From: Runella sp. MFBS21
GTDB taxonomy: Bacteria; Bacteroidota; Bacteroidia; Cytophagales; Spirosomataceae
Length of the DNA: 64,000 nucleotides
Direction: 5' to 3'
Assembly (NCBI RefSeq): GCF_029433105.1
Contig: NZ_JARNTW010000010.1
Location: forward strand, 1-64,000
A program made the position numbers and the translations under genes. The notes under the pieces are model-generated. The model worked only from the letters and a program-made list of their open reading frames with translations, searched no databases and was not told where the DNA came from. Shown one piece after another: positions 46,911-64,000 of the stretch. Position 1 is the first letter of the stretch. Every line of letters starts with the position of its first letter.

Positions 46911-48062
46911 CTAGGGTCTTAAATTCACCGAAGAATTACGAACAATGAGCTTTGTAGGAAGTGTATGTGTCACATTATGAGGATGTTCCATTTGTTCTAA
47001 TAATAGCTTTGCTGCTTGCCGCCCCATCTCCCATACAGGTTGCTCAATGGTGGTTAGTGATGGCTCAATAATGGCCGAAACAGGGTCGTTGCTAAAGCCC
47101 ACGATTCCTAATTCTTGGGGAATCTTAACTCCTCGGCTTTTAGCAACGAGCATGATTTCGATGGCTGTGGGGTCATTGATAGCAAAAATAGCATCAGGAG
47201 GCTGTGGCAAACTAAGCAGATAATTGGCGTAAATACGGGCTTTTTCTTCCGACAAATCATAATGAATGACGAGGTCGGGGTCGAGTGGAAGTCCGTGTTT
47301 TTGCAAAGCATCTCGGTACCCATTCAATCTCAATCGGCTTACTAACAGTGAGTTGGGGCCTGCCAAGTGAGCAATACGCCGATAACCTTGTGCAATCAAA
47401 TGCTCTACTGCCTGAAAAGCTCCGTTATAATCGTCCACAATTACCTGTGGAGTTTCTAATTCGGGACAAACACGATTGAAAAATACCATAGGAACTTCTT
47501 TACGCAATACAGCCCTGAAATGGTCGAAATTGTTGGTTTGAGCCGTAACCGATACTAGAAGCCCATCTACGCGGCTGCTCATGAGGGCTTTGACGTTGGC
47601 CATTTCGGTTTCGTAAGATTCGTCCGACTGACAAATCATCACGTTGTACCCCGCCTTTGAAAGTACTTCTTGTGCCCCCATAATCATGGTAGGAAAGAAA
47701 TAATGCCGAAACTCTGGTACTAGAATCCCTACGATATTTGTCCGACTTTTCAAAAGGGCATTGGCTAAGGGATTTGGTTGATATTCCAACTGTTGGGCCA
47801 AGTCCAAAATCATTTTGCGCGTTCCTTCATGAATGTCTGAATGCCCCCGCAACGCCCGCGAAACCGTCGATTTGGAGATGCCAAGTTGATGGGCAATATC
47901 CATGATAGTGACTTGGTGGTGACGTTTGTTTTCGGTGGTAGCTGAGGGTGTAGGTAACGTAAAATGATAGTCACAATCTTTACAAAAATACCGCTGTTTT
48001 CCGCGCGTAATCCCAGCTTTTTGCACAAAATCAATTTGCAAACATTTCGGACATTTTATCAT
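46911..48062 (-). CDS. LacI-family transcriptional regulator with an N-terminal InsA-like zinc ribbon
   Basis: The 383-residue protein starts with a zinc ribbon: C4-x2-C7 and C27-x2-C30 in MIKCPKCLQI and GKQRYFCKDC, the pattern of IS1 InsA-type transposase ribbons. A LacI helix-turn-helix follows at about 51-75 (VTIMDIAHQLGISKSTVSRA) with hinge region. The periplasmic-binding-protein-like effector domain occupies about 110-383 (VGILVPEFRHYFF, AIFAINDPTAIEIM, GIVGFSNDP). It is divergent from susC with palindromes between them, so it most likely represses or activates the SusCD locus in response to a sugar. The extra ribbon is unlike E. coli LacI. Confidence 0.92.
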   Translation of the reverse strand: MIKCPKCLQIDFVQKAGITRGKQRYFCKDCDYHFTLPTPSATTENKRHHQVTIMDIAHQLGISKSTVSRALRGHSDIHEGTRKMILDLAQQLEYQPNPLANALLKSRTNIVGILVPEFRHYFFPTMIMGAQEVLSKAGYNVMICQSDESYETEMANVKALMSSRVDGLLVSVTAQTNNFDHFRAVLRKEVPMVFFNRVCPELETPQVIVDDYNGAFQAVEHLIAQGYRRIAHLAGPNSLLVSRLRLNGYRDALQKHGLPLDPDLVIHYDLSEEKARIYANYLLSLPQPPDAIFAINDPTAIEIMLVAKSRGVKIPQELGIVGFSNDPVSAIIEPSLTTIEQPVWEMGRQAAKLLLEQMEHPHNVTHTLPTKLIVRNSSVNLRP

Positions 48063-48353: not shown

Positions 48354-51300
48354 ATGCTAGGAAAATTACGAATATGGTTGTTAGTCTGTGGCCTGCTGTC
48401 CAATGCTTATGCCCAAGACTTGACCATTAGAGGAAAAATCACCGACGGTTCGGGGGGGACGCTTCCGGGGGTCAATGTAACGGTAAAAGGTACGCAGAAA
48501 GGAGTGGTGTCGGATGGAGAAGGTAAGTACCAACTCAACGGCGTACCTACTAATGCAACTTTGGTATTTTCGTTTATTGGTTATCTCAAACAAGAGCTAG
48601 AAGTCAACAATCGTAGTGTGATAGATGTGGTGCTAGAAGCTGACGTAAAAGCCCTCAATGAGGTGGTAGTCGTGGGATATGGTACGCAGCGCAAAATCGA
48701 AACCACGGGTTCGATTGCTTCCGTCAAATCGTCGGATTTGGTACAGACACCCGTCGCCAACGTAGCTCAGGGCTTGCAAGCGCGTGTCTCGGGAATTCAG
48801 ATTAACCAAAACTCAGGCTCGCCAGGCGGAAACGTCAGCGTCCGAATTCGCGGTACCAACTCTATCAATGGAACTTCAGAGCCGCTGTATGTGGTAGATG
48901 GCATTCAGATTTCTAACGGAGGGGGTATCAATGATGTTAGTCCTCTTTCGACCATCAACCCTAATGATATCGAGAGCGTAGAAGTACTGAAAGATGCATC
49001 GGCCTCAGCGATTTATGGAGCGCGTGCAGCCAATGGCGTGGTACTTATCACCACCAAACGCGGTAAAAGCGGCGGGACTCGCGTAACGCTTGATAGCTAT
49101 TATGGAATGCAAAAAGTGGCAAAAACCCTTCCTACGCTCAATGCGGCCGAATTTGCACAGCTAGAAAATGAAGTTTTTAAAAATAGTTATTACAAAGACC
49201 CTGCCTCCTTGGGTGAAGGAGTCAACTGGCAAAATATCATTTTCCGCGAAGCGCCCATTCAAAACCACCAATTGTCTATCAATGGAGGTAATGATAAAAC
49301 CCAAGTGGCGCTTTCGGCCAATTACTTTGACCAAGACGGCATTATCATCAGTTCTAATTTCAAACGTTATTCGTATCGGTTGAATCTCGACCACAAAATC
49401 AGTAATCGTGTTAAAGTCGGAACGAGTATCTTAGGAAGTTATTCGGTTAACTCAGGTGTGCAGACGGGTTCTACTAGTCAAGGAGATGCCGATGTAGTAA
49501 CGGGTACCATCTTAGGTGCGGCTATCGGCGCACCACCCAACTTGAAGCCTTATCGTCCTGATGGAAGTATTTTCCCTTTTGGAGAACAAGAAGACGGACG
49601 CTATCGCGAAGTAACCAACCCCTTAGGGCTTGCAGCGATATTGAACAAAACAGCGCTAAAAAGGACATTGATAAATCTTTATGGGGAAGCTACGATTTTG
49701 AATGGCTTGACCTATCGGGCGTCTTTCAACGTAGATTTACAAAACAATATCACCGACCGCTATTCACCTCGCTCTATCATCAGTGCGCGTGATTTGAATG
49801 ACAACTCGGGCTCAGGTTCGAAAGCCAATAGCAATTTCTTGGGGCTATTGCACGAAAGTATCTTGACCTATTCGCAAACGATTGCCCAAAATCATAGCTT
49901 GAAATTTACGGGGGTATTTGCCTCACAAGCTGAATTTGCCAATGCCAATTCCATCAGTGCTTCGGGCTTCCCTAACGACGCTACCCAAAACGAAGCGTTG
50001 CAGTTGGCCCTCAACCGCACTGTCAACAGTAGTCGTAGCAAGCAGCGTCTAGATTCTTACATGGGGCGGGTAAACTATGGCTACAAAGACAAATACTTCC
50101 TAGATTTGACCGCTCGCGTGGATGGTTCAAGCCGCTTTGGAGCCAACAACAAGTATGGGTTTTTCCCGGCGGTTTCGGCGGCGTGGCGCTTGATTGAAGA
50201 GCCTTTTTTGAAAAACGTAACTTGGCTTTCTGACCTCAAACTACGGGCAAGCTACGGTATCACGGGGAATGCAGGCGGTATTTCGCCTTACCAATCGTTG
50301 AGTACGGTAGCTGCTACGGGAAGCGATTATGTTTTCAACAACGCCTACGTAACAGGCATCAATCCAACCGGAATTGCTAACCCTGATTTGCGTTGGGAAA
50401 AATCGACCCAAACCAACGTCGGATTGGATGTAAGTTTGCTTAACAATCGCTTTAGCTTGATTGTGGATGTGTACGATAAAATCACAAGAGATTTGTTGTA
50501 TATCAAGACATTACCGCTTTCGTCGGGCTATGCAAGTATTACTGGAAACTATGCTTCTTTGGAAAACAAGGGGATTGAGTTTGCAGCCAATGCCCGTATC
50601 TTAGATGGGCCAATTAAGTGGAATGTATCAGCCAACGTGACGCGTAATCGCAACAAAGTACTAGACCTTGACGGCGGAACTACCACCGAACGTTTTATCA
50701 CGAGCTATACCATTTTGAAAGTGGGCGAACCGTTGGGCTTGATTAAATCTTACATTTTTGACGGAATCAACCAAACAGGAGAAACTATTTTGCCTGGCTA
50801 CGATGGGCGTTTGGGTGGACATAAAATCAAAGACTTGAATGGTGACGGTACTATTACCTCAGCGGACCAAACCATTACGGGAAATCCTAACCCTAATTTT
50901 ATCTTTGGTTTTTCTACCAATCTTGCCTACAAAGGCTTTGACCTTAGTGCGTTCTTGTCGGGTTCGCAGGGCAATGATATTTATAATCTTAGCCGCTTGT
51001 CATTTGAAAACCCACTGGGGCAGCGCAACTTGTTGAAAGGCGTCGTAAATCGCTGGTCGCCTACCAATCCGAGCAATCAGTACGTCAGTGCTGCGCAAGG
51101 TGGTCGTTTGCCAGTGAGCAATTACTACGTAGAAGATGGTTCATACATTCGTTGCAAAAACGTGACATTGGGTTATACCCTACCTGCTATCAAAGGCATC
51201 CAGAACATTCGGGTGTATGTGTCGGCCAACAACTTATTTACCATTACCAATTACAGCGGATTTGACCCTGAGGTAAATACGTTTGCAGGTTCCAATACGG

Positions 51301-51371
51301 TCATTGGTATCGACAACTTCGTGTATCCACAAGCGCGCTCGTTCTTGGGAGGTATTCAAGTAACGTTTTAA
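48354..51371 (+). CDS. SusC/RagA-family TonB-linked outer membrane transporter
   Basis: The 1005-residue protein has a signal peptide (ending AYAQ) and a carboxypeptidase-regulatory-like domain (about 22-95, GTLPGVNVTVKGTQKGVVSD). A TonB-box-like LNEVVVVGYGTQ follows, then a plug with VRIRGTNSINGTSEPLYVVDG and the SusC signature EVLKDASASAIYGARAANGV. A 22-strand-type barrel ends in the terminal aromatic strand ARSFLGGIQVTF. It imports oligosaccharides or similar ligands captured by the SusD partner, using TonB energy. It starts the plus-strand locus that continues through at least the hydrolase gene ending at 61758, and the divergent LacI-type gene probably controls it. Confidence 0.96.
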   Translation: MLGKLRIWLLVCGLLSNAYAQDLTIRGKITDGSGGTLPGVNVTVKGTQKGVVSDGEGKYQLNGVPTNATLVFSFIGYLKQELEVNNRSVIDVVLEADVKALNEVVVVGYGTQRKIETTGSIASVKSSDLVQTPVANVAQGLQARVSGIQINQNSGSPGGNVSVRIRGTNSINGTSEPLYVVDGIQISNGGGINDVSPLSTINPNDIESVEVLKDASASAIYGARAANGVVLITTKRGKSGGTRVTLDSYYGMQKVAKTLPTLNAAEFAQLENEVFKNSYYKDPASLGEGVNWQNIIFREAPIQNHQLSINGGNDKTQVALSANYFDQDGIIISSNFKRYSYRLNLDHKISNRVKVGTSILGSYSVNSGVQTGSTSQGDADVVTGTILGAAIGAPPNLKPYRPDGSIFPFGEQEDGRYREVTNPLGLAAILNKTALKRTLINLYGEATILNGLTYRASFNVDLQNNITDRYSPRSIISARDLNDNSGSGSKANSNFLGLLHESILTYSQTIAQNHSLKFTGVFASQAEFANANSISASGFPNDATQNEALQLALNRTVNSSRSKQRLDSYMGRVNYGYKDKYFLDLTARVDGSSRFGANNKYGFFPAVSAAWRLIEEPFLKNVTWLSDLKLRASYGITGNAGGISPYQSLSTVAATGSDYVFNNAYVTGINPTGIANPDLRWEKSTQTNVGLDVSLLNNRFSLIVDVYDKITRDLLYIKTLPLSSGYASITGNYASLENKGIEFAANARILDGPIKWNVSANVTRNRNKVLDLDGGTTTERFITSYTILKVGEPLGLIKSYIFDGINQTGETILPGYDGRLGGHKIKDLNGDGTITSADQTITGNPNPNFIFGFSTNLAYKGFDLSAFLSGSQGNDIYNLSRLSFENPLGQRNLLKGVVNRWSPTNPSNQYVSAAQGGRLPVSNYYVEDGSYIRCKNVTLGYTLPAIKGIQNIRVYVSANNLFTITNYSGFDPEVNTFAGSNTVIGIDNFVYPQARSFLGGIQVTF

Positions 51372-51398: not shown

Positions 51399-52886
51399 AT
51401 GAAAAAATATAATAGACTCATCGGCTTATGTACTGCCCTTTTGGTGCTCAATACAAGCTGTAATCTAGACGAAACCATTTATTCCTCCATTTATACCGAG
51501 GCTTTTTACAAAACAGCTGCTGATGCCGAAAAAGGGCTTGTCGCCGTCTATGACCCTCTGGGAGATATGGGAGGGGGACCCGCTTTGACCATTGTATCTG
51601 ACTTTAGTGCTGATCAGTGCTATCCACGGGCGGTAGTAGGGCGCAACACCCTGACGCTTTTTGCTTATGATGCCAACTACACCACCCAACGCACGGCGGG
51701 GCGTACCAACGAATCGCCGCAGCAAATTTGGGCGTCGTGCTATGATGGTATCGAAAAGGCCAATTGGATTATCGAAAAAGTACCTGCGGCTGTTATGGAT
51801 GAAACACGCAAAAAACAAATCGTGGGCGAAGCTTATTTTATGCGGGCGTTTTATCACTGGAACCTGACCAAAAACTTTGGTGATGTTCCGGTCAAGATAA
51901 AACCAAGTACCTCTGAAGCAGAAGCAACCATTCCTAAAAGCACGAAAGCCGAAGTTTATAAGCAGATTTACAGCGATTTAGACCAAGCACTTGCCGCAGG
52001 CCTGTTGTCATATCCAGCCGTTGAGAAAGGCCGCCCTTCTAAAGAAGTTGTAAATGCGCTGTATGCCAAAGCGGCTTTGTACAACGAAGATTGGCAAAAA
52101 GCTTCGCAAAAAGCGCAAGAAGTTATCAGTTCGGGCAAGTATTCGCTCATGCCCGATGTACGCGATGTGTATCGGTATGATAAAGAAGATGCCGCACGGG
52201 TTGAAAATATGTGGGCTTTTGAAGTAGCGCCAATTTCGCCAGGACGTGGTCATCAACTTACGGGCCTATGTGGCCCTCCCGGCAACGCGGGAGCGGAGTA
52301 CGCTCGTACATCGTTTGGGTCAATGTTTGCTTATCAATCCTTTTTTGATTCGTTTGACCCCGCCGACAAGCGTCGCCAATTGCTAGACACAACCTATTTG
52401 GATAGAAGTGGAAAAATTGTGCCTCAACGTAGCATTACGCCGATTACGACGCAAGGTGTTTTGATTAAAAAATACCAAGACCCAAACACCATTGTAGGAC
52501 AAATCCCCAACATTCCAATTTTGCGCTTGCCTGATATGTACTTGATTGCGGCTGAAGCCGAAGCTCGTTTGAACGGAGCTACTGCCGCTGCTTATGGATT
52601 TGTAAACGTTATTAGGAAACGTGCAGGCCTGCCTGATTTGAAAGCCGGCTTGAGCAAAGATGCATTCATCGATGCCGTGTTGCAAGAGCGTTCGTGGGAG
52701 TTTTTTGCGGAAGGTGACCGTTGGTACGACCTGACTCGCACCGACAAGTTTATGAGTGTGATTCCCAAAGCCGTCAATAATGTCTATCCAACGCGTACGC
52801 CAACGGCCAAAAACAAGTATTTTCCGATTCCATTAGATGAAATAAATGCTAATCCTAAGTTGGAGCAAAATCCTGACTGGAAGTAA
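51399..52886 (+). CDS. SusD/RagB-family surface nutrient-binding lipoprotein
   Basis: The 495-residue lipoprotein has lipobox LNTSC with C21. The family's TPR-type helices and C-terminal segment are present, e.g. GEAYFMRAFYHWNLTKNFGDVPV, PILRLPDMYLIAAEAEARLNG and LQERSWEFFAEGDRWYDLTRTD. It binds the glycan at the surface and forms the lid on the SusC barrel. It begins 27 bp after susC. The last codons (LEQNPDWK and stop) have been copied several times in the region immediately downstream, each copy joined to a palindrome. Confidence 0.96.
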   Translation: MKKYNRLIGLCTALLVLNTSCNLDETIYSSIYTEAFYKTAADAEKGLVAVYDPLGDMGGGPALTIVSDFSADQCYPRAVVGRNTLTLFAYDANYTTQRTAGRTNESPQQIWASCYDGIEKANWIIEKVPAAVMDETRKKQIVGEAYFMRAFYHWNLTKNFGDVPVKIKPSTSEAEATIPKSTKAEVYKQIYSDLDQALAAGLLSYPAVEKGRPSKEVVNALYAKAALYNEDWQKASQKAQEVISSGKYSLMPDVRDVYRYDKEDAARVENMWAFEVAPISPGRGHQLTGLCGPPGNAGAEYARTSFGSMFAYQSFFDSFDPADKRRQLLDTTYLDRSGKIVPQRSITPITTQGVLIKKYQDPNTIVGQIPNIPILRLPDMYLIAAEAEARLNGATAAAYGFVNVIRKRAGLPDLKAGLSKDAFIDAVLQERSWEFFAEGDRWYDLTRTDKFMSVIPKAVNNVYPTRTPTAKNKYFPIPLDEINANPKLEQNPDWK

Positions 52887-52891
52887 AACCC

Positions 52892-53257
52892 AACGTAGGC
52901 AAGGTTCCAAACCTTGCCTACGTTAACCACTAGACGATATAAGTTGGAGCAAAATCCTGATTGGAAAAACTCAACGTTGGCAAGGTTCCAAACCTTGCCA
53001 ACGTTCCAAGCCAAGGTTAACCACTAGACGATATAAGTTGGAGCAAAATCCTGACTGGAAAAACTCAACCTTGCCAACGTTCCAAGCCAATGTTAACCAC
53101 TAGACGATATAAGTTGGAGCAAAATCCTGACTGGAAGTAAAACATAACGTAGGCAAGGTTCCAAACCTTGCCTACGTTCCAAGCTAAGGTTGTAGACCTT
53201 AGTAACGCTCAAAAACTTGAAATCAACGTTGACAAGGTTCCAAACCTTGCCTACGTT
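52892..53257 (+). repeat. Tandem array of 33-bp palindromes joined to copies of the susD 3' end
   Basis: The palindromes have arms of 15 nt around a CCA centre, type AACGTAGGCAAGGTT. They lie at 52892-52924, 52973-53005, 53146-53178 and 53225-53257; the last is imperfect, and a half copy lies at 53067-53081. Between them the end of susD (52856-52889, TAAGTTGGAGCAAAATCCTG and onward) recurs at 52940, 53034 and 53110. Each recurrence is preceded by TTAACCACTAGACGATA, itself similar to the susD codons for PLDEI (CATTAGATGAAATA). The copies carry a small deletion and substitutions, so they no longer read as SusD. A further CTAAGGT/ACCTTAG hairpin lies at 53184-53202. The array fills the whole gap to the next gene. 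Confidence 0.9.
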
Positions 53258-53274: not shown

Positions 53275-54435
53275 GTGTCAAAACTTAAACACATCACTTA
53301 CTGTTTTTTACCACTTGGGTTTTCCACAAAACTTGGTAGGAATGCTAGTATTTTATGTGTTTTCTTATCGGTAACCATTTCAGCGTTTTCCCAAATTCCC
53401 TTAAGTACCAAATCCTATACTGTCACAATCAATGACTCTACGGAATACACGCTAAAGTTGGCTTTGGACAATACAGGACAACCGCACTATTTCTTTAGCA
53501 ATATTTTCACACCGGTCTGTCTTACAGGCGAATGTAAACCGGTTTATATTAATTTTTATTGGGATTTGTTGGGTAACTATACGCGTTTCGATTTGCCCCC
53601 AAGAACCGAGTTGACTCGCATGGATCATAAGCCTTTTAAGCCAGAAGATTATGAGAAATTGCAGAATATTTTGGCAAATAGTCGCTCCCTTTTAAAAGAT
53701 GTTTCGATGGAGGATTTGGTGGGCAAAGGCACCGAAAATCTCGCCGATTCGGTAGATGCCAAAGCAGGTGCGACGCTCAAAACCGTCAAAAACGAGGTCA
53801 TCGACGGAGCGGTATATACTTGCTACACCTTGTGGCACATCGCGCACGGAAAAGTCGTGGCAGAGATGCAGCGAATCACGGAGACTTTTAAAAGTGAGGA
53901 ATTGTTGCATCGATTTTTGACCGACCACAATCATCATTATCAATACTGGGCCATGGAACGCTTCATGACCGATGAAGGAAAAGTGACAACGGGTTTTGAA
54001 GCTGATATACAGCAGGTGATTCGTGGTAAAAATATCTTTACGGCTCGCTATGCTTTACAAAAAGTTAATAATCAGTTTTTTGCGGATAAAGCCCGCCAAC
54101 TTTGGCTTTGGGAAACTTATCAATTGGCCTCTTATGCTTTACAAATAGCAATTTTGAAAAAAATGATAAACCTGTCGTTTATGGACAAAATACAGGAAGC
54201 GATAGCTCAACAATTGAGCAATACGAATCACGAGCAAGCTACTCTTTTGTTAAAAATATTGTCGACGCAGTCAAAATTGTCGGATAAGACTCAGCTCATT
54301 TTGGCAGTTCAATTGCCTTCCTCAACCACGGCAAGCCACATTTATGATTTATTATTAAAACAGGCTCCCAAAAATAAGGAAGTAAGACAACGTATGACTG
54401 AATTTAATAAAGCACTCAATCCAACCAAAAAATGA
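53275..54435 (+). CDS. Secreted protein with FMN-attachment-like motif, candidate ApbE substrate
   Basis: The 386-residue protein starts at GTG 53275, the only start upstream of a signal-type hydrophobic segment (about 24-40, ending AFSQ). The N-terminal region has a CLTGEC pair (C82, C87), and then DAKAGATLKT at 161-170. This resembles the D-x-x-(S/T/A)-G-A-T motif in which ApbE links FMN to the threonine (here T167). It is followed by GAVYTCYTLWHIAHG. The C-terminal half is helical, HEAT-like. ApbE and an FAD oxidoreductase are encoded just downstream, with a 1-bp gap to the latter. I infer a periplasmic FMN-carrying redox protein. The first serine/threonine position of the motif is alanine, so modification is not certain. 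Confidence 0.6.
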   Translation: MSKLKHITYCFLPLGFSTKLGRNASILCVFLSVTISAFSQIPLSTKSYTVTINDSTEYTLKLALDNTGQPHYFFSNIFTPVCLTGECKPVYINFYWDLLGNYTRFDLPPRTELTRMDHKPFKPEDYEKLQNILANSRSLLKDVSMEDLVGKGTENLADSVDAKAGATLKTVKNEVIDGAVYTCYTLWHIAHGKVVAEMQRITETFKSEELLHRFLTDHNHHYQYWAMERFMTDEGKVTTGFEADIQQVIRGKNIFTARYALQKVNNQFFADKARQLWLWETYQLASYALQIAILKKMINLSFMDKIQEAIAQQLSNTNHEQATLLLKILSTQSKLSDKTQLILAVQLPSSTTASHIYDLLLKQAPKNKEVRQRMTEFNKALNPTKK

Positions 54436-54436
54436 C

Positions 54437-56239
54437 ATGAAACCATTTCTAAAAACTCTATTTCTCCTGCTATTGTCACTACATTTGGTGGCGCAAGAAC
54501 ACATTTTTCTGGAAACCGAATCATTTGCCGAAAAAGGAGGTTGGGTGATTGACCAGCAATCTTTTGTGGTCTTAGGCTCTTCTTATCTGATGGCTCACGG
54601 CATGGGTCGCCCTGTCAAAGACGCTACTACCACCGTTCAATTCCCCAAAAAAGGTAAATATCGGGTGTGGGTACGTACCAAAGACTGGGCACCTTTTCCT
54701 AAAGGGCCAGGCAAATTCCAGATTGTGCTTAATGGAAAGCCTTTAAATCAAGTTTTTGGAGAAAGCGGTTCGGATGTATGGAAATGGTATGCTGGAGGAG
54801 AAATCGACGTTCAGAACGAAGAAGTAAGCGTAGCTTTGCATGACCTCACAGGCTTTAACGGCCGTTGTGATGCCATTTTGTTTACGAATGCATCGGGTTT
54901 TACGCCGCCAGAATCTTTGGAGGCAATGACTGCTTTTCGCAAAAAATTACTAAATCTCACCGACAAACCTGCCAATACTGGCCCCTTTGATTTGGTCGTA
55001 GTTGGAGGTGGAATCGCCGGAACTTGCGCTGCGATTTCTGCTTCTCGGATGGGCTTAAAAGTAGCGTTGATTCAAGACCGACCCGTGTTAGGGGGCAACA
55101 ATAGCTCCGAAATCAGAGTGCATTTGATGGGAGATGTTGACAAAAATCATTACCCAAAACTAGGGCGGATTGTAAGAGAAATGGACAATGGAGACCCCGG
55201 CAATGGTAATCCTGATGCTAAAGAATACGGCGACGCCCGCAAAACGGCTATTGTAAAAGCCGAGCGCAACATTTCTTTGTTTTTGAATACCCACGTATAT
55301 CAAGTCGAAAAAGAAGGCGATAAAATTGTGGCGGTGATTGGACGAGACATCGCCACCAACAAAGAAACTCGTTTTACTGGAACATTTTTCTCTGATTGTA
55401 CGGGTGATGGTACGATTGGTTATTTGGCAGGGGCCGATTACCGAATGGGCCGTGAGAGCAAGGCCGAAACCGGTGAATCTCTGGCATCCGAAAAAGCCGA
55501 CGACTTTACATTGGGAACTTCCAATTTGTGGGCATCTTTGCCACGTGATACGGAGACTTCTTTTCCCGAAACACCTTGGGCAATTCAGTTTTCGGACGAA
55601 TACCACATCGACGATACCAAGGCTGATTGGCAGTGGGAAACAGGCTTTGGTAATTTTAACACCATTACGCAAGCCGAGCAAATCCGCGACCATAACTTAC
55701 GGGCGATTTATGGCAATTGGTCGTACTTGAAAAAGAACAAAGCCACTAAATATGCCAAGCATGAACTTGCTTGGGTAGCTTATATCGGCGGAAAACGCGA
55801 GTCGCGACGATTGATGGGCGACCATGTACTCAATCAGATGGATATTCAGGAAGGTAAGCAATACCCCGACGGAACCGTGACAGCGACTTGGACTATCGAC
55901 CTGCATTTTCCTGATGAGCGCAATAAAAAATATTTCGAAGGACAAGAGTTTTTTGCGGGGACGAAGCACATCAAAGTGGCGCCTTATACCATTCCTTATC
56001 GTTGTTTGTATTCCAAAAACATCAGCAATTTATTCATGGCAGGACGCAACATCAGTACTACTCACGTGGCTTTCGGAAGCACTCGTGTGATGCGTACCTG
56101 TGGTATGATGGGAGAAGTTGTAGGATTTGCGGCTTATTTGACCAAAAAATTCAATACTACGCCACGCGGCGTTTATCAACAATACCTGCCCGAACTCATG
56201 GCTATTATTAAAGATGATGTGCCATCGGCGAAGCCTTAG
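54437..56239 (+). CDS. Secreted FAD-dependent oxidoreductase with N-terminal carbohydrate-binding-like domain
   Basis: The 600-residue protein has a signal peptide (about 1-19, ending LVAQ). A golvesin/xanthan-lyase-like beta domain follows (about 20-155, with KGKYRVWVRTKDW and FNGRCDAILFTN). The FAD_oxidored domain begins FDLVVVGGGIAGTCAA (GxGxxG near residue 190) and contains a motif LGGNNSSEIRVHLMG, then DCTGDGTIGYLAGADYRMG and a C-terminal NLFMAGRNISTTHVAFGSTRVM that completes the FAD site. Secreted members of this family occur in Bacteroidota polysaccharide loci, where they may oxidise sugars or cyclitols. Its start is 1 bp after the preceding stop, and ApbE follows 68 bp later. Confidence 0.88.
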   Translation: MKPFLKTLFLLLLSLHLVAQEHIFLETESFAEKGGWVIDQQSFVVLGSSYLMAHGMGRPVKDATTTVQFPKKGKYRVWVRTKDWAPFPKGPGKFQIVLNGKPLNQVFGESGSDVWKWYAGGEIDVQNEEVSVALHDLTGFNGRCDAILFTNASGFTPPESLEAMTAFRKKLLNLTDKPANTGPFDLVVVGGGIAGTCAAISASRMGLKVALIQDRPVLGGNNSSEIRVHLMGDVDKNHYPKLGRIVREMDNGDPGNGNPDAKEYGDARKTAIVKAERNISLFLNTHVYQVEKEGDKIVAVIGRDIATNKETRFTGTFFSDCTGDGTIGYLAGADYRMGRESKAETGESLASEKADDFTLGTSNLWASLPRDTETSFPETPWAIQFSDEYHIDDTKADWQWETGFGNFNTITQAEQIRDHNLRAIYGNWSYLKKNKATKYAKHELAWVAYIGGKRESRRLMGDHVLNQMDIQEGKQYPDGTVTATWTIDLHFPDERNKKYFEGQEFFAGTKHIKVAPYTIPYRCLYSKNISNLFMAGRNISTTHVAFGSTRVMRTCGMMGEVVGFAAYLTKKFNTTPRGVYQQYLPELMAIIKDDVPSAKP

Positions 56240-56307
56240 GTGATGGAATTGTGGTACGCTGAGACAAAAGTGCTGCTAACCTGTGCTTTAGCACTTAAAA
56301 TCAAAAG

Positions 56308-57288
56308 TTGATGAAAACGACGATAATGATTCTTGGTGGTTGGATGTTAGCCTTTGCATCTGTCCTGGCAAACGAGCCGATGATTCTTTTGCAAGGACAG
56401 GCACAAGGTACCACCTATCATATCAAATATGTTGATGCTCATCAACGGTCTTTCCAACGACAGATTGACTCATTATTGGCTGAGATTGACGAATCTCTTT
56501 CTATCTATCGCTCCGACTCGGAGATTTCGGAGTTCAATCGTTCTATGAGTTTTCGGTTTCGATTACCCCATTTTTATGCTGTACTCAAAAAATCAGAAGA
56601 AATATTTCACCAAACTCAAGGTGCTTTTGACCCTACCGTAATGCCTTTGGTAGAGGCGTATGGATTTGGTTCTAAAAAAATGCCTAAGGGAGAGTTCGTT
56701 AACAAAGATTCTTTGTTGCAATATGTTGGTTTTCAGTATATAAAATTTGATTCGGTAAAAGTCGCGAAACTCAAACCTCATGTTCGTTTAGACCTCAATT
56801 CGATTGCACAAGGGTACAGCGTGGATCAAGTAGCTACCTTATTAGAATTACAAGGCATTCAAAACTATATGGTCGAAATTGGGGGCGAGATTCGTACAAA
56901 AGGGCAAAAAAACGACGGACAAGCGTGGGTCATTGGCATCGAAAACCCTCTACATCCAGCGAAGTTGCAAACCAAAATGAATCTCACCAATCGCGCCATG
57001 ACTACGGCGGGTAATTATCGTAATCGGTATGAAGCCAATGGGCGCTTGTTTAGCCATATCATCAATCCTAAAACGGGTGAAATGGAGCAAAATGCGATAC
57101 TCAGTGTAACAGTTTTTGCCAACGATGCTATCACGGCTGATGGATACGATACCGCATTTTTTGTGATGGGGCTAGAGGCTACCAAGCGTTTTCTGACAAC
57201 CCGCAAAGACCTTGATGTATATATCATTTATGGGAATGAAAAGGGGAATTTGAGTACTTATTCAACTGAGGGATTAAAGACTTTATAA
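56308..57288 (+). CDS. apbE: FAD:protein FMN transferase (ApbE)
   Basis: The 326-residue protein has a signal peptide (about 1-21), so it acts outside the cytoplasm. ApbE features are GTTYHIKY near the N-terminus, DLNSIAQGYSVDQVA (the flavin-binding KG-like segment), GGEIRTKG, the AMTTAGNYRNRY loop, HIINPKTG, and DAITADGYDTAFFVMG, whose acidic residues bind the catalytic Mg2+. ApbE splits FAD and attaches FMN to a threonine in (S/T)GAT-type motifs. The protein encoded at 53275 carries such a motif, and the partner FAD oxidoreductase lies between them. The stop abuts the next start directly (TAAATG). Confidence 0.93.
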   Translation: MMKTTIMILGGWMLAFASVLANEPMILLQGQAQGTTYHIKYVDAHQRSFQRQIDSLLAEIDESLSIYRSDSEISEFNRSMSFRFRLPHFYAVLKKSEEIFHQTQGAFDPTVMPLVEAYGFGSKKMPKGEFVNKDSLLQYVGFQYIKFDSVKVAKLKPHVRLDLNSIAQGYSVDQVATLLELQGIQNYMVEIGGEIRTKGQKNDGQAWVIGIENPLHPAKLQTKMNLTNRAMTTAGNYRNRYEANGRLFSHIINPKTGEMEQNAILSVTVFANDAITADGYDTAFFVMGLEATKRFLTTRKDLDVYIIYGNEKGNLSTYSTEGLKTL

Positions 57289-59214
57289 ATGAAAAAAACG
57301 ATAAATTTATTTTCGTGGTATTTATTTGGTTGGCTATTAATAAGTCACACTCATCTTTTGGGCCAAACCCAAATTTTGGTCAATCAAGCTGGGTATAATC
57401 GCGGCGAAGCAAAGCGTTTTGTGTGCTTAGGAGCTAAAGATGGCACTAAGTTTAAAATCGTGAATATGGCTTCCCACCGCGCCGAATTTGAAGGAGAACT
57501 CATCAATCAGGAAGGGTGGTTTACGACTTTCAATCCCGTCTCCAAAGACGAATTTAGAATCGAAATAGAAGGCTTTATCCCTTCCGTTCCTTTTTGGATT
57601 GCCGACCACCTCATCGAAAAACTATCCTCAAAACTAGGCTACGAGTTCTTCATCGACGTGCGTGGCTCCGAAGACCCAATCAATGCCAATTTGCCCAAAG
57701 TATACGGCGGAGGCCCTTCGCGCGATGGGGGCGCGTATGGGTTGGAAACAATTTTTGAATGCCTCCAATACGCTTCAAATCCGTCGTTGTATGACCGCTG
57801 GAAAACGGAATTTGGGGACAAAAACACGCCCGATTTGATTGATTTGATTTTGTGGCATGCGGAGTTTGCTTATGCCCATGTGGCTTATCAAGGCCCCGTA
57901 GGCAACCGCCACGGCTCACTAGGCTACGAGGGCCAACCGCGCATGAACTATGATTATTGGAATTTACTAGACCAGCTTTCGGTCGTCTGTGCCGCTTACC
58001 ATGATTTTCTGAAACCTTATTTACCCCGCGAAAAATACCTCAAGTATCGACAAGTCTGCAATGAAAAATGGACGCAATACGACCGCCACAAAGTGGTTCG
58101 CTATTGGACTTACAGCAACAAATGGGTAGATGCAGGTTTTCAGGAATTCAACGAAATGGGCAATGCTTACGGGCAGTCGGTCTTTAGCAATTTGTTTATG
58201 TATTTGTGCGAAAAAAACGAGCCCAACGGCACGCCTCAGCAGTACCTAACGTGGGCCCAAGAAAGTGCAAAAGACATCATTCAACACTGGGATTTCAACA
58301 ACCCCCGCCACATGTGGTGGATTCGAAACGCCGAGCATATTACGCCGCAAGCCTTGGCCTATTTTTTACTGGTAGCGCCCGAACATGCCCCCCAAGGCAC
58401 CAAAGAAAAATTGCAGGCTTGGGCTACGCACATGCACCAAAAAACCAATAATTTTTGGAAATACCGCGTCCACAGCGAAACCGAATGGGCGCATCCTAAA
58501 ACCAAAGAATTGGGCGGCGCTCCTGCCCTGGGCGGATCGATGTTTGCCGTAGCGCATTTGCTCAACGACCGTCGCTTGCGAGACATTGGGTGGGCACAAG
58601 TTGATTTTGTGTTTGGAGTCAATCCCGTAGGCGCGCATTTGAGCAATAAAAGTCCCGAGCGGTTAGCGATTGGTGGATATTGGGAGGGCGTCGAAAACGG
58701 CTGGCCGTCGGCTCATCCGAATGGCTACGGGATGCTGGGTAAAGTGCGGGGTACGCTTGATGGCTCACCGCTCGACAAAGATTTTCAAAAATCTGCTAGT
58801 ACTACTCCAACAAGCAACGACCCCAAAGACTTGATTGGCAAGGACGCCTATGCTACCGAAGGTTGGTGTGTCTCCAACCGTGGTTGGCAGGCGACGCTCA
58901 CTTTTTCGACGCTAGGTAGCCACCGAGTGACTTTTTTGGATGCTTCCGAAAAAGAAATCAAACAAACCAAAGCGGGGCAAACGGTAATTGTTGAGCTAAA
59001 AGCTGCTTTGAACATGGACTGGGATAAGGTAGAAAAAGGGCTTGTCACGTTGAAAATCAACGGCAAAAGAAGTGATACGTTAGAGGTGGTCGAAACGGGT
59101 GAAAACACGGGTGTTTTTAGAGCTAATTATAAAATTCCGACCGATTGTCGCTCGCTGGAAGTTGCCTACGGAACGATGGGATTTGCCCAAAAAGCAGCGC
59201 TATTAATCAAATGA
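57289..59214 (+). CDS. GH9-like secreted glycoside hydrolase
   Basis: The 641-residue protein has a signal peptide (ending HLLGQ). A CelD_N-type Ig-like domain opens with ILVNQAGYNRGEAKRF, as in family 9 cellulases. An (alpha/alpha)6 barrel follows (about 115-500), containing RNAEHITPQALAYFLLVAP and VDFVFGVNPVGAHLS, the latter like the YxxG-x-NP segment of GH9. The classic DAGD motif is not evident, so the catalytic site may differ or the family may be a distant relative. A C-terminal beta domain (about 530-641) resembles a surface-attachment domain. It is probably co-transcribed with apbE, which it abuts. Confidence 0.7.
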   Translation: MKKTINLFSWYLFGWLLISHTHLLGQTQILVNQAGYNRGEAKRFVCLGAKDGTKFKIVNMASHRAEFEGELINQEGWFTTFNPVSKDEFRIEIEGFIPSVPFWIADHLIEKLSSKLGYEFFIDVRGSEDPINANLPKVYGGGPSRDGGAYGLETIFECLQYASNPSLYDRWKTEFGDKNTPDLIDLILWHAEFAYAHVAYQGPVGNRHGSLGYEGQPRMNYDYWNLLDQLSVVCAAYHDFLKPYLPREKYLKYRQVCNEKWTQYDRHKVVRYWTYSNKWVDAGFQEFNEMGNAYGQSVFSNLFMYLCEKNEPNGTPQQYLTWAQESAKDIIQHWDFNNPRHMWWIRNAEHITPQALAYFLLVAPEHAPQGTKEKLQAWATHMHQKTNNFWKYRVHSETEWAHPKTKELGGAPALGGSMFAVAHLLNDRRLRDIGWAQVDFVFGVNPVGAHLSNKSPERLAIGGYWEGVENGWPSAHPNGYGMLGKVRGTLDGSPLDKDFQKSASTTPTSNDPKDLIGKDAYATEGWCVSNRGWQATLTFSTLGSHRVTFLDASEKEIKQTKAGQTVIVELKAALNMDWDKVEKGLVTLKINGKRSDTLEVVETGENTGVFRANYKIPTDCRSLEVAYGTMGFAQKAALLIK

Positions 59215-59247: not shown

Positions 59248-61758
59248 ATGACCAAAACAATACGCACCTTATTGGCAGTGGCTTTCTTAATAATAGCTGG
59301 GGAGCTATGGGCACAGAAGAGTCTGGTTTTAGAAAATGAAGCTGTGAAAATGCTTTGGGAAAACAGCGCAGTAGGTTGGAAAATCAAAACATTATCCGTT
59401 AAAAAAGGAAATTCTTGGGTAGCATTAAAAACACCTTCGGGAGAAAATACCTTAGTTTTTAGTGCCGAAAAACCCAAAATGACTCCCGATTCAGTTTTTA
59501 AATCTATTACTGGTGAAACATTTCCAGGAGAGGCTTATCATTACCAAACGAAGCAATGGGCCGAAAGTACCAATCCCGTATCGTTGAATACAGCTGGTAA
59601 AGCACTTCATTTTTTTGCAAAAAATGGCAAACAAATCAAAACTAACCAACTCAGTTTTGAAACAGAAAATGAAGTAGCAAAAATCACTACTGAGTGGAGT
59701 TTTGATCCCCAATTTCCAACCGATATATGGGTCAAACAAACACTGACGCCTAAATCCATGGGCTATTTTTCATTGGCTACGCCTACGCTTGCTCATGTTA
59801 GTGAGGCCGATATGGCTTGGGTATCGGTGCCAGGTTATTTTCAAGGAAATTATATTCAGCCCAATTTTGCCTTGGCTTATGCCTATGGTCATGGGGCACC
59901 TGCTTTGCCCGTCGTCTATCGTGAGCGTTCGGCTAGTACGCTAAGCCCTTTGGTAACGACCAAAAGCGGAATTACGATTTCGGTCATACCCGATCCTGCG
60001 CTTTGTCGCGACCCTTGGGAAAAAGACAAAAATACCATGCATGCTTGGAACGTGGGGTTATCACACAAAAATCGTAAATCTCAACTTGCTCCTACACTGT
60101 ATTTTCCGGTGTTGGGGGAGCCGAAGTCTGAGCTGAAAGCAGGGGAAACCGTGAGCTATTCTTTTCGTTATAGTTTAATAGATGGCGATTGGTTTAAGGC
60201 AATTAACCATGCCGTTTATGATATTTTTGAACTCAAACAAAGCCTTGCGCTTCGCCAAAGTAAGCAGTCGCTCACCGACCGTATTCAGAAAATGCACCAT
60301 TATCTGACCGAACCCAAAACGTCGCTTTGGAATATTGAAGAATATAAGGGCTTGAAAATTGGGGCACAATCGTATTTAGGTGGAGTGGTAGGTTCGCAGC
60401 GAGATGCCATGAAAAACTCTGACTATGGCGCGATGTGGATGCTTGCCAATGCCACTAAAGATAGCTTACTCACCAAAAATGTATTGCCTTATGCCCTGAA
60501 TTTCAAGATCGTACAACAGATTACGGACGAAGGTTTTTTTAAAGGAGCCTTAGCAGGGCAGTATTATTTAGCTAAATCAAAACGATTTACGGAAGAGTGG
60601 GGCGAGGTAGTGGAACCCATCGCCGTGACTTACTATACGATGTTGGATTTAGGCAATATTCTACTTTTTGAACCTAACAATACCTCCTTGCGAAATTTGT
60701 TGAGTAATGGTGCCGAATGGTTGCTCAAAAATCAAAAGCCCGATGGTAGCTGGGCCGTGGCTTACGACCGCAAAAATGAGCAAGAAATCTTCCGCGACAT
60801 CAAAGATGTACGGCCTACTTTTTATGGGTTGTTGGTAGCGTATCGGATTCTCAAAGACCCTAAATACTTGGCAGCGGCGCAGAAAGGAGCAGATTGGTTT
60901 GTGAAAAACGCTGTCGAAACAGGTGGCTTTTTAGGGGTATGTGGCGATGCTCGCTATGCCCCCGATTTTGCCACGGCGCAGTCGGCACAGGCGTTGCTAG
61001 ATTTGTACGACCTTACTCAAAAAGAGAAATACAAAAATGCGGCTATTACTGCTGCAAAAATATACACCACCTCTATATACACTCACCCCATCCCAAATCG
61101 TAACCCCAAAACCGTCAACGGCAGCCCTCGAGAGGATTGGGAGATAACCCAAGCAGGTCTTAGTTTTGAACACGGTGGCATTTTTGGGTCTTCCAATTCC
61201 CAAGGACCTATTCAGTTGGCAAGTCATACGGGGCTGTTTTTACGGATGTTTCAACTGACAAAAGAACCCATTTTCGCCGACTTGGCACGGGCAGGAGTCT
61301 GGGGGCGTGATGCTTTTGTGGATGCCAAAACAAGCGTAGCGTCTTACTATTGGCAAGCTATGAATCGTGGCGCAGGGCCTTATCCACACCACGCTTGGTG
61401 GCAGATTGGCTGGATTACGGACTATCTGATGGCTGAAGCGGAGGTTCGTTCTAATGGTCAAGTGAAGTTCCCTCGTGGGTTTGTGACGCCTAAAGTAGGC
61501 CCTCACCAAAGTTATGGATTTGAAGCGGGTCTTATCAACGGTACCAAAGCCAAACTCATCGTTGATGAAAACCTCGTTAAAATCGATAATCCGACCATTG
61601 ATTACCTCTTAGCAGAATCGGAACAGAAAGATAAGCTATTTGTGATTTTGTTGAATAACCGTTCTCAGGCAACTGATTTTCAGGTCACTATCAACGGTAA
61701 GTCCTACAAAAAACAATTGGCAGGGGTGGGATTGGAAGTGATGACGGTAGCGAAGTGA
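59248..61758 (+). CDS. Secreted (alpha/alpha)6-type carbohydrate-active-like protein
   Basis: The 836-residue protein has a signal peptide (ending LWAQ). An N-terminal beta-sandwich region (about 24-330) is followed by a long helical toroid (about 340-740). The toroid has hairpin repeats such as LLKNQKPDGSWAVAYDRKNE, AAQKGADWFVKNAVETGGFLG and QSAQALLDLYDLTQKEKY, typical of glycoside hydrolases, lyases and terpene-cyclase-like folds. The C-terminal small beta domain contains TIDYLLAESEQKDK. It begins 34 bp after the GH9-like gene and completes the locus. I do not recognise a specific family; action on the same glycan is inferred. Confidence 0.65.
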   Translation: MTKTIRTLLAVAFLIIAGELWAQKSLVLENEAVKMLWENSAVGWKIKTLSVKKGNSWVALKTPSGENTLVFSAEKPKMTPDSVFKSITGETFPGEAYHYQTKQWAESTNPVSLNTAGKALHFFAKNGKQIKTNQLSFETENEVAKITTEWSFDPQFPTDIWVKQTLTPKSMGYFSLATPTLAHVSEADMAWVSVPGYFQGNYIQPNFALAYAYGHGAPALPVVYRERSASTLSPLVTTKSGITISVIPDPALCRDPWEKDKNTMHAWNVGLSHKNRKSQLAPTLYFPVLGEPKSELKAGETVSYSFRYSLIDGDWFKAINHAVYDIFELKQSLALRQSKQSLTDRIQKMHHYLTEPKTSLWNIEEYKGLKIGAQSYLGGVVGSQRDAMKNSDYGAMWMLANATKDSLLTKNVLPYALNFKIVQQITDEGFFKGALAGQYYLAKSKRFTEEWGEVVEPIAVTYYTMLDLGNILLFEPNNTSLRNLLSNGAEWLLKNQKPDGSWAVAYDRKNEQEIFRDIKDVRPTFYGLLVAYRILKDPKYLAAAQKGADWFVKNAVETGGFLGVCGDARYAPDFATAQSAQALLDLYDLTQKEKYKNAAITAAKIYTTSIYTHPIPNRNPKTVNGSPREDWEITQAGLSFEHGGIFGSSNSQGPIQLASHTGLFLRMFQLTKEPIFADLARAGVWGRDAFVDAKTSVASYYWQAMNRGAGPYPHHAWWQIGWITDYLMAEAEVRSNGQVKFPRGFVTPKVGPHQSYGFEAGLINGTKAKLIVDENLVKIDNPTIDYLLAESEQKDKLFVILLNNRSQATDFQVTINGKSYKKQLAGVGLEVMTVAK

Positions 61759-62420: not shown

Positions 62421-64000
62421 TTGAACTCACTCATAGATACCGCCGTCATCTTCATATTTTCGGCCTTTGTGCTCGGAATTGGGATGCTGTTTGCTCGTAC
62501 GGGGCGCAACTTAAAATCGTTCTTTGCGGGCGGAGAAGCCGTCCCTTGGTTTATTGGAGGACTGTCGCTTTTTATGTCTTTTTTCTCGGCGGGTACGTTT
62601 GTGGCTTGGGGGTCGATTGCCTATAAACATGGCTGGGTGGCCGTGACTATTCAATGGACGATGTGTGTGGGAGCTATTGTGACAGGATTGTTTTTATCTC
62701 CTCGGTGGCGAGCTACTGGAAACCTCACCGCAGCGGAATTCATCCGCGAGCGCCTCGGCGAACGCGTTCAGAAGACCTACATTGGGATTTTTACTTTGGT
62801 ATCTGTTTTTATTAAAGGTTCTGTGTTGTATCCTGTGGCTAAATTGGTGAGTGTTTCGCTAGGCTTTCCGCTGGTCGAGTCTACCATTGTATTGGGCATT
62901 TTTATGATTGCTTATACAGCCGTAGGCGGACTTTGGGCGGTGATGGTCACTGATATTTTACAGTTTGTGATTCTGACGGCTGCGGTGTTTATTTTACTCC
63001 CCTTGTCGCTCAATAAGGTCGGTGGTTTTGATAGTTTTACGCAACAAGTCCCCGACGATTTTTTCAACTTCCTTCACGGCGAATATACCTTCGGTTTTGT
63101 GATGGCTTTTGTATTTTATCACATTGCTTATATCGGCGGCAACTGGACATTCGTTCAGCGCTATACAAGTGTAGATAGCCCAAAGTCGGCGCGGAAAGTA
63201 GCCTTTCTTTTTGCGGCTTTGTATTTGGTAAGCCCGATGATTTGGATGTTGCCACCCATGATTTATCGCGCACTCAATCCTGCCCTTACAGGTCTAGATA
63301 CTGAAAATGCCTACTTGCTTATTTGTAAAGCTGTATTGCCGCCAGGTTTGCTGGGCTTGATGCTTACGGGGATGTATTTTTCCACCTCTGCCAGTGCCAA
63401 TACCACTCTAAATGTCGTCTCTGCCGTTTTTACTAATGATATTTATAAAGGTTTTATCAATCCCAAAGCTTCTGACCAACAACTGATTAAAGTAGCACGG
63501 CTTTCTTCGTGGGGATTTGGACTAGGCATGATTGTGATTGCGCTGTTGGTTCCTGCGGCAGGGGGAATTGTAGAAGTGGTATTGAGTATTTCGGCTATTT
63601 CGGGTGGGCCATTATTAGCGCCACCACTTTGGGCGCTGTTTTCAAAACGTATCAACGGAAAGACTACTTTCTGGATTACGATTGTCGGGTTGACGGTCAA
63701 TCTCTTCTTTAAAGTGCTGTCACCTTGGTTATTAGATTTTAAACTAAGCCGTGCCGTCGAAACTATCGTGGGTATTGGTCTGCCGTTGGTGTTGTTGCTG
63801 GCTTATGAATTGTATGCTCGTTCAAAAGGACTGATTGCCGAAGAGTATGAAGCGTATCTCATCTCTAAAGCAACCCGCAAAGCCGAAAAACTCGCCGAAA
63901 CGGAAGAGGAAGCTTTGGAAATAAAACGCCAAAATCACTTCGGAATGAGGGTTATTGCGGGAGCATTGGTATTTGTAGCGGTAGTATTGCTGGGTTTAAG
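62421..64000 (+). CDS. Sodium:solute symporter (SSS family), 3' end outside the window
   Basis: An open frame runs from TTG 62421 to the right edge without a stop. It encodes over 525 residues of a hydrophobic protein. ARTGRNLKSFFAGGEAVPWF is the SSS signature after the first helix, followed by LSLFMSFFSAGTFVAWGS, YTAVGGLWAVMVTD and YFSTSASANTTLNVVSA, the region of the Na+ site. A hydrophilic segment occurs late (KAERKAEK-like helices). The family imports sugars, amino acids or organic acids with Na+. No ATG precedes the first helix in frame, so TTG is the best start (MNSLIDTAVIFIF). It may bring in the products of the neighbouring polysaccharide locus, by inference. Confidence 0.9.
   Translation, partial: MNSLIDTAVIFIFSAFVLGIGMLFARTGRNLKSFFAGGEAVPWFIGGLSLFMSFFSAGTFVAWGSIAYKHGWVAVTIQWTMCVGAIVTGLFLSPRWRATGNLTAAEFIRERLGERVQKTYIGIFTLVSVFIKGSVLYPVAKLVSVSLGFPLVESTIVLGIFMIAYTAVGGLWAVMVTDILQFVILTAAVFILLPLSLNKVGGFDSFTQQVPDDFFNFLHGEYTFGFVMAFVFYHIAYIGGNWTFVQRYTSVDSPKSARKVAFLFAALYLVSPMIWMLPPMIYRALNPALTGLDTENAYLLICKAVLPPGLLGLMLTGMYFSTSASANTTLNVVSAVFTNDIYKGFINPKASDQQLIKVARLSSWGFGLGMIVIALLVPAAGGIVEVVLSISAISGGPLLAPPLWALFSKRINGKTTFWITIVGLTVNLFFKVLSPWLLDFKLSRAVETIVGIGLPLVLLLAYELYARSKGLIAEEYEAYLISKATRKAEKLAETEEEALEIKRQNHFGMRVIAGALVFVAVVLLGL

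Follow-up and report, generated by a model that had tools for sequence, protein, structure and literature searches.

What would a flavin transferase and a redox enzyme do in a glycan-utilization locus? The question is raised by a gene cluster of Runella sp. MFBS21, read on a 64,000-nt stretch of DNA (the window, meaning that whole stretch) and on sequence past its end. Here, genes for a protein with the motif DAKAGAT (the GAT protein), a flavin adenine dinucleotide (FAD) oxidoreductase (FADox) and ApbE, an FAD:protein flavin mononucleotide (FMN) transferase, follow one another behind susC and susD (Table 1). An earlier note on this DNA had described this succession, and the open reading frames (ORFs) and the PF12831 and PF02424 matches agree with it. 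On balance, we favor the explanation that two of these genes encode the proteins of a redox unit and the third the enzyme that matures it; the unit would oxidize a substrate of the locus and send the electrons to respiration.

The GAT protein and its partners

The DAKAGAT motif occupies residues 161-167 of the GAT protein, so that the earlier note was right in numbering the predicted FMN attachment residue as T167. Within the window, the pattern D..[STA]GA[TS] occurs in one of 38 non-overlapping ORFs of at least 100 aa, and shuffling of the GAT protein yields it in 0.13% of 200,000 trials. Relatives were taken from one collection scan, in which 80 of 88 confirmed relatives were kept, corresponding to 79 distinct named loci. 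A larger table of 109 rows, with many duplicates, was set aside in favor of these loci; T stands at the site in all 106 of its rows that gave a residue. The earlier note had made its proposal depend on conservation of the T167 region in orthologs, and the region proved to be conserved: T167 and A166 are kept in all 79 named relatives, D161 in 78 and G165 in 74. Among the cysteines, C183 is kept in all 79 and both C82 and C87 in 78, suggesting that a C82-C87 disulfide is possible. The fourth motif position varies (T in 34, A in 32, S in 11 and G in 2) and is A in the window. A local ApbE gene accompanies 24 of 32 A-type loci, 12 of 45 S/T-type loci and neither of the two G-type loci, an association to which we give no weight because it follows genera.

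The accessible part of PMC12052999 gives the ApbE site consensus as D-x-x-[S/T]-G-A-[S/T] and reports that changing T to A at the site abolishes modification, with partial effects of changes to D, G or A. The NqrC protein of the same genome reads DAISGGT at its FMN site, suggesting that this lineage tolerates departures from the consensus. We also counted the motif [VILM]D[AGVTI].[ASTG]GAT and found it in 98 of 1073 ORFs of loci L036-L170: 75 belong to GAT proteins, 19 to what we read as NQR/RNF subunits, and 4 rows, from 3 genes, to exported Gfo/Idh proteins. Since these loci had been picked for GAT, FMN_bind, ApbE or FADox genes, the weight of this census is that hardly any other protein carries the motif. 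The GAT protein is apparently exported, as judged by eye from a hydrophobic N-terminus (the way in which export was judged for all window proteins), and is very probably flavinylated. As a separate observation, DAISGGT in place of SGAT was also seen in NqrC of some relatives (L123 and L127-L130; L117 is this genome).

No Pfam or NCBIfam model matches the GAT protein at E <= 0.001. In a profile comparison with 14 FMN_bind proteins, its N domain scored 33.5 (P 2e-4), compared with a maximum of 26.0 for 60 column shuffles, 21.3 for the reversed profile, 16.5 for FADox and 12.5 for its own C domain, and the alignment places the site, a tryptophan and a histidine in register. In the structure model of the GAT protein (pLDDT 89.7, pTM 0.80), the N part is rich in beta strands, and the site opens a helix of residues 162-172, residues 158-163 being poorly resolved. 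An armadillo/HEAT-like repeat begins at about residue 206, and these C-terminal repeats dominate fold searches with the whole protein. In our reading, the GAT protein is distantly related to FMN_bind proteins, and its tail would serve for docking.

FADox matches PF12831 at 257.1 bits (E 5e-76, cut-off 27) over positions 1-408 of the 416 in the model, and its structure model has a pLDDT of 83.1. A PF12831-type gene is adjacent to the GAT gene, on the same strand, in 71 of the 79 loci; it lies downstream in 55 and upstream in 12 of 67 of these, the remaining four being L050, L060, L067 and L090. Within Runella, GAT genes were found in 9 of 13 genomes, 11 genes altogether, and each of these genes lies right beside a PF12831 gene. 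Of 28 FADox matches of at least 70% identity in 198 genomes, 27 have a GAT gene at most 270 bp upstream, and the 28th starts at a contig end. The GAT-FADox pair occurs twice in a row in L114. We consider it quite probable from these gene arrangements that FADox and the GAT protein form a redox pair.

The accessible part of PMC12052999 names the ApbE histidine as the general base. The window ApbE matches PF02424 at 261.1 bits (E 1.6e-77, cut-off 25.6) over residues 34-305 and contains the segments of the catalytic histidine and the metal site, SHIINPKTG and TADGYDTA, aligned with those of the solved ApbE 6nxi; its N-terminus is hydrophobic, as judged by eye. GAT, FADox and ApbE genes occur together in 36 of the 79 named loci, and the five-gene set formed by this core and both downstream genes occurs in three, all from Runella. 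This core of three genes is thus found elsewhere too.

In a tree of ApbE proteins, the window clade (support 100/99) holds 40 rows, 37 of which were collected through GAT or FADox loci. Three Larkinella genomes yielded 10 ApbEs, all of them taken regardless of their neighbors; 3 fall within the window clade, and each of these sits directly behind a GAT paralog. In the Larkinella locus L159, of which 19 kb were read, the order is SusC, SusD, a 460-aa PF12831-like enzyme, a GAT paralog and ApbE. Seven genomes (G206, G207, G209, G210, G212, G213 and G214) have a single ApbE, and the number of GAT proteins in each ranges from one to four. DUF2271 and DUF3570 are absent from all seven, and an FMN_bind protein is present in one (G212). 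Thus, in six of them the GAT protein is the only candidate substrate among the four families searched (FMN_bind, DUF2271, DUF3570 and GAT). The NQR operon of the Runella genome studied here has its own ApbE. Comparison lends good support to the proposal of the earlier note that this locus would combine a covalent FMN with an electron path outside the cytoplasm, given the invariant T167, the adjacency of FADox, an ApbE nearby or beside a paralog, and the six genomes in which the GAT protein is the sole candidate.

Sugar context, proposed mechanism and alternatives

A SusD-like gene, as identified by BLAST clustering, is present in 59 of the 79 loci. With 66 SusD genes in 7.88 Mb, we estimate that a random 17-kb stretch would contain one about once in seven times. 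Both GAT loci of this genome lie directly behind SusD; the second reads SusC, SusD, a 453-aa PF12831 enzyme and GAT, followed by a sulfatase and glycosidases as judged by eye. Distant GAT members lie beside GH106 (L113) and GH43 (L109). In G206, G207 and G213, the sole ApbE is found amid Gfo/Idh, xylose-isomerase-like, GMC-oxidoreductase and Gluconate_2-dh3 genes (Pfam on G206), and the sole ApbE of G209 has Gfo/Idh and xylose-isomerase-like neighbors. This gene company points to oxidation of a sugar by FADox, a possibility that we would place somewhat short of probable. The earlier note had gone further in suggesting that the bound sugar may be oxidized before hydrolysis, which on the sequence is a conjecture.

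The genes and their order, the conserved site, the pairing of FADox with GAT and the company of ApbE are observed. In the explanation that we favor, whose export, flavinylation and electron-transfer steps we infer, ApbE would move FMN from FAD to T167 of the GAT protein outside the cytoplasm. FADox would oxidize a substrate imported by the SusC/SusD system, probably at a sugar hydroxyl group in a fragment of glycan. The FMN on the GAT protein would take up the electrons and pass them to a respiratory acceptor encoded elsewhere; the tail of helical repeats in the GAT protein may serve as a docking site for a partner. We are least sure of oxidation rather than reduction, of sugar as the substrate, and of the acceptor.

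Several findings weigh against this explanation. The 79 loci are not independent, many of them coming from Dyadobacter, Larkinella, Spirosoma and Chitinophaga. The window motif departs from the published consensus at position 4 (A164), with D, G, A and T present. In the other GAT protein encoded by this genome the motif is DAISSPT, and no ApbE is local to it, its PF12831 partner being kept; the Larkinella GAT paralogs beside ApbE read DAVSSAT, which is likewise off consensus. The cut-off of the FMN_bind model (PF04205) is reached by none of 56 GAT family members (two weak matches, best E 0.013), so that by this Pfam model the GAT family falls outside PF04205. Profile comparison of the whole GAT protein with nine FMN_bind proteins gave a score of 32.2 and a probability of 18.3, and even for the N domain the hhalign probability of 45.6 is modest. 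The PF12831-type gene is present but further off in L104 and L107, and none was found in six of the 79 loci (L101, L102, L105, L109, L112 and L113), some of which are short contigs. Among FADox matches at 44-53% identity, with at most 6 candidates scored per genome, 10 of 26 have a GAT neighbor and 16 have none among the GAT matches of the scan; the supposition that every FADox has a GAT partner was rejected on these grounds, and the enzyme type can thus work without one. A local ApbE is missing from 43 of the 79 loci, and in all 21 of these that were traced to genomes an ApbE is encoded elsewhere. Finally, no electron acceptor was recognized in the window.

The direction of electron flow is the weakest point of the oxidation reading, since the FMN_bind-linked FAD enzymes named in the accessible part of PMC8238504 (fumarate, urocanate and methacrylate reductases) are reductases and the fold of FADox does not tell the two directions apart. 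Its best Foldseek matches include fumarate reductase, succinate dehydrogenase, flavocytochrome c3 and urocanate reductase, at TM scores of only about 0.3, and such a fold comparison is generic. Electrons could instead run from the membrane through the FMN of the GAT protein to FADox and on to an extracytoplasmic substrate, as in flavinylated reductases of the fumarate and urocanate types. We regard this as rather unlikely given that FADox belongs to PF12831 and not mainly to PF00890, that the loci hold sugar-import genes, that ApbE lies amid sugar-dehydrogenase-type genes in three single-ApbE genomes, and that no quinol-side donor was recognized in the window. It is also conceivable that the window GAT protein is no longer flavinylated and acts as a docking or assembly factor for FADox, with ApbE serving another protein. 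Such a role would fit the alanine at position 4, the DAISSPT paralog that still pairs with a PF12831 enzyme, the large part of the protein taken up by the helical repeat, and the presence of NQR subunits with flavin sites in the genome. However, the threonine is invariant, the NQR operon has an ApbE of its own, ApbEs of the window clade accompany GAT-family genes, genomes with a single ApbE carry GAT proteins, and NqrC of the same genome departs from the consensus as well, all of which make a purely structural GAT protein decidedly unlikely.

If ApbE mainly supplied or recycled periplasmic flavin for apo-FADox, the GAT protein would be a flavin chaperone and not an electron carrier. The Sec-type start of the GAT-paired FADox, which would need FAD outside, and the Tat-like starts of its GAT-less relatives (both by eye) are consistent with this, and an FAD-hydrolyzing ApbE relative is reported for Treponema in the accessible part of PMC4767422. 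A chaperone role leaves the invariant attachment-type site of the GAT protein unexplained, and we consider it very improbable. Glycan loci collect genes freely, and the many loci without ApbE would suit a set of merely co-regulated members with no direct functional link. Against this stand the FADox-GAT adjacency, which holds for 71 of 79 loci and for 27 of 27 assessable close FADox genes, the occurrence of both gene orders and the repeated pairs in L114; mere co-regulation is hardly credible.

Layout of the locus and further observations

Runella zeae is the nearest named relative at the locus (SusC 99% and FADox 96% identical). The GAT protein (386 aa) has a GTG start, as it does in R. zeae; FADox has 600 aa, and ApbE (326 aa) has a TTG start with an ATG 3 bases on. 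One base separates the GAT and FADox genes and 68 bases the FADox and ApbE genes, and ApbE abuts the gene at 57289. The adjacent susC and susD homologs, each with Pfam matches, are as expected of a polysaccharide-utilization locus. Candidate carbohydrate-active enzymes are the CelD_N protein at 57289, the protein at 59248 with a GH88 match below the cut-off, and a GH2 enzyme past the window end. Of the downstream hydrolase genes described in the earlier note, the GH2 gene and the CelD_N domain are in keeping with the description, but the 57289 protein had no catalytic-domain match in the Pfam run and the GH88 match at 59248 is too low to confirm the rest. Homologs of the 59248 protein occur in 40 of the 79 named loci. 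The GH2 gene is followed by a gene for a further PF12831 protein, of 771 aa and lacking an evident signal sequence (L120:5034-7346); a similar symporter and a long PF12831-like protein were also seen in L084 and L114.

Table 1. Features of the Runella sp. MFBS21 locus (window coordinates) and motif-bearing Gfo/Idh genes of other loci
Feature	Position	Strand	Basis
Divergent LacI-type regulator	46911..48062	-	PF00356 + PF13377
SusC-like TonB-dependent receptor	48354..51371	+	Plug + CarbopepD_reg_2 domains
SusD	51399..52886	+	PF07980 E 5.7e-35, PF14322 E 7.5e-25
GAT protein, putative electron carrier flavinylated by ApbE; N domain resembling FMN_bind, tail of helical repeats	53275..54435	+	
DAKAGAT codons, residues 161-167 (T167, predicted FMN attachment site)	53755..53775	+	
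FADox, FAD oxidoreductase with N-terminal beta domain	54437..56239	+	PF12831, residues 185-580
ApbE, FAD:protein FMN transferase	56308..57288	+	PF02424; aligns with solved ApbE 6nxi
Possible hydrolase, cellulase-type N-terminal Ig-like domain	57289..59214	+	PF02927 (CelD_N) 26.8 bits, cut-off 24.6
Probable alpha/alpha-barrel protein, possible hydrolase or lyase	59248..61758	+	PF07470 (GH88) 25.8 bits, cut-off 26.6
Sodium:solute symporter, continues past window end	62421..63998	+	PF00474 E 1.5e-41
Gfo/Idh gene with VDG[VI][ST]GAT	L158:9787-10995	-	Tat-like by eye
Gfo/Idh gene with VDG[VI][ST]GAT	L148:2-1240	+	Tat-like by eye
Gfo/Idh gene with VDG[VI][ST]GAT	L164:3711-4949	+	Tat-like by eye

From its position, we infer that the LacI-type regulator is tied to the locus. 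It has an IS1/IS1595-type N-terminal zinc-binding domain (33.1 bits, cut-off 28) before its helix-turn-helix, and similar cysteine-rich regulator starts were seen in L070 and L097. In the gap between susD and the GAT gene (52890-53250), AAGGTTCCAAACCTT occurs four times in exact form, three times within palindromes of 15-17 bp, and repeats of the susD 3' end are present as well; no further exact copy of AAGGTTCCAAACCTT is present in the window, and one is present in R. zeae (L036). A plasmid origin was considered and rejected, as tblastn against plasmids gave two weak partial matches only, at 25-26% identity.

Nine of the 16 GAT-less FADox loci were read gene by gene, revealing no motif-bearing GAT-like protein and no C..CH motif; the idea that a cytochrome replaces the GAT protein there was thus not borne out. 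By eye, GAT-less FADox relatives of about 50% identity (L162, L165, L166, L167, L169 and L170) have Tat-like starts, and the GAT-paired FADox of the window has a Sec-type start. Proteins of 808-810 aa adjoin GAT-less FADox genes at L163:6652-9075 and L168:2969-5398, the latter with DIRAGAS. A family of about 830 aa (SGIYP.LA.YN.EGECGTGAVVPW) is found in 15 of the 79 named loci and also beside GAT-less FADox genes; it was seen at L069:5293-7854, L082, L084, L091, L162 and L169, and the L069 member has no Pfam match at 1e-5. Distant relatives of the GAT protein are also present in records from planctomycetes, Verrucomicrobia and Kiritimatiellae, where in most cases no PF12831 gene is adjacent. 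Two distant GAT proteins have as neighbors proteins with a planctomycete cytochrome c (PSCyt1) domain (L112:8982-10001 and L102:1723-4953), which are possible candidates for electron acceptors.

In two Dyadobacter genomes whose FADox locus lacks ApbE, an exported Gfo/Idh protein with VDGVTGAT is encoded directly upstream of another ApbE. A third Gfo/Idh protein, encoded just upstream of a GAT-less FADox gene (L164), has VDGISGAT at the same aligned place, and four related Gfo/Idh neighbors of ApbE in other genomes lack the motif. As far as their sequences go, the motif-bearing proteins are possible new ApbE substrates, and they may provide a second carrier for the same enzymes. We tentatively extend the explanation beyond this locus: some Bacteroidota might oxidize part of their glycans outside the cytoplasm, electrons passing from PF12831 enzymes to ApbE-flavinylated carriers with helical tails and on to respiration, with Gfo/Idh proteins standing in for these carriers in a few lineages.

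Relation to known systems

Descriptions of Bacteroidota glycan loci mostly show hydrolases and lyases grouped with a SusC/SusD importer. The earlier note knew of no described locus with this gene set, which agrees with our search of mainly open-access literature (PMC11334425 among it), bioRxiv preprints and most subscription papers lying outside it: no description was found of the GAT family, of its pairing with PF12831 enzymes or of its placement with SusC/SusD. In the accessible part of PMC6232662, ApbE and SusC are merely listed together on one large island. If the proposed explanation is true, glycan loci would gain an oxidative step and a route for electrons into respiration, provided by a conserved redox enzyme and its carrier with covalent flavin. 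ApbE would gain a substrate family, one that Pfam-based surveys would miss because the FMN_bind model does not reach the GAT protein. The role of many secreted PF12831 enzymes, for which no description of function was found, would become testable.

ApbE, flavinylated carriers and PF12831 enzymes are each of known kinds. The clusters of GMC oxidoreductase and Gluconate_2-dh3 genes around the ApbE of G206, G207 and G213 are what we take to be periplasmic glycoside 3-dehydrogenase clusters. The window differs from these in having a PF12831 enzyme and a GAT protein; FADox is not a GMC enzyme, and no GMC oxidoreductase or Gluconate_2-dh3 protein was recognized among the locus ORFs, a part of which were run against Pfam. 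With the NqrC/RnfG-type ApbE/FMN_bind (PF04205) systems covered in the accessible parts of PMC8238504 and PMC12052999, the locus shares ApbE and a partner that looks exported and has a site of the D..(S/T)GAT type; the GAT N domain can be aligned to FMN_bind, the site and the tryptophan falling in register. Unlike those systems, it has a carrier beyond the reach of the PF04205 model, a helical-repeat tail, a PF12831 partner and a place in SusC/SusD loci. The flavinylated fumarate-reductase-like enzymes (PF00890 with FMN_bind) in the accessible part of PMC8238504 likewise combine an FAD enzyme of a related general fold with an FMN unit; here, PF12831 is the main match, the predicted FMN unit is a separate protein in all the loci read, and the direction may be opposite. 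The DUF2271 and DUF3570 substrates of ApbE, treated in the same accessible text, resemble the GAT protein in being exported, in lying outside FMN_bind and in having the motif beside an ApbE. We read both kinds in this genome as well, next to other ApbEs (L118 and L116), whereas the GAT protein belongs to another sequence family and the window ApbE to another clade.

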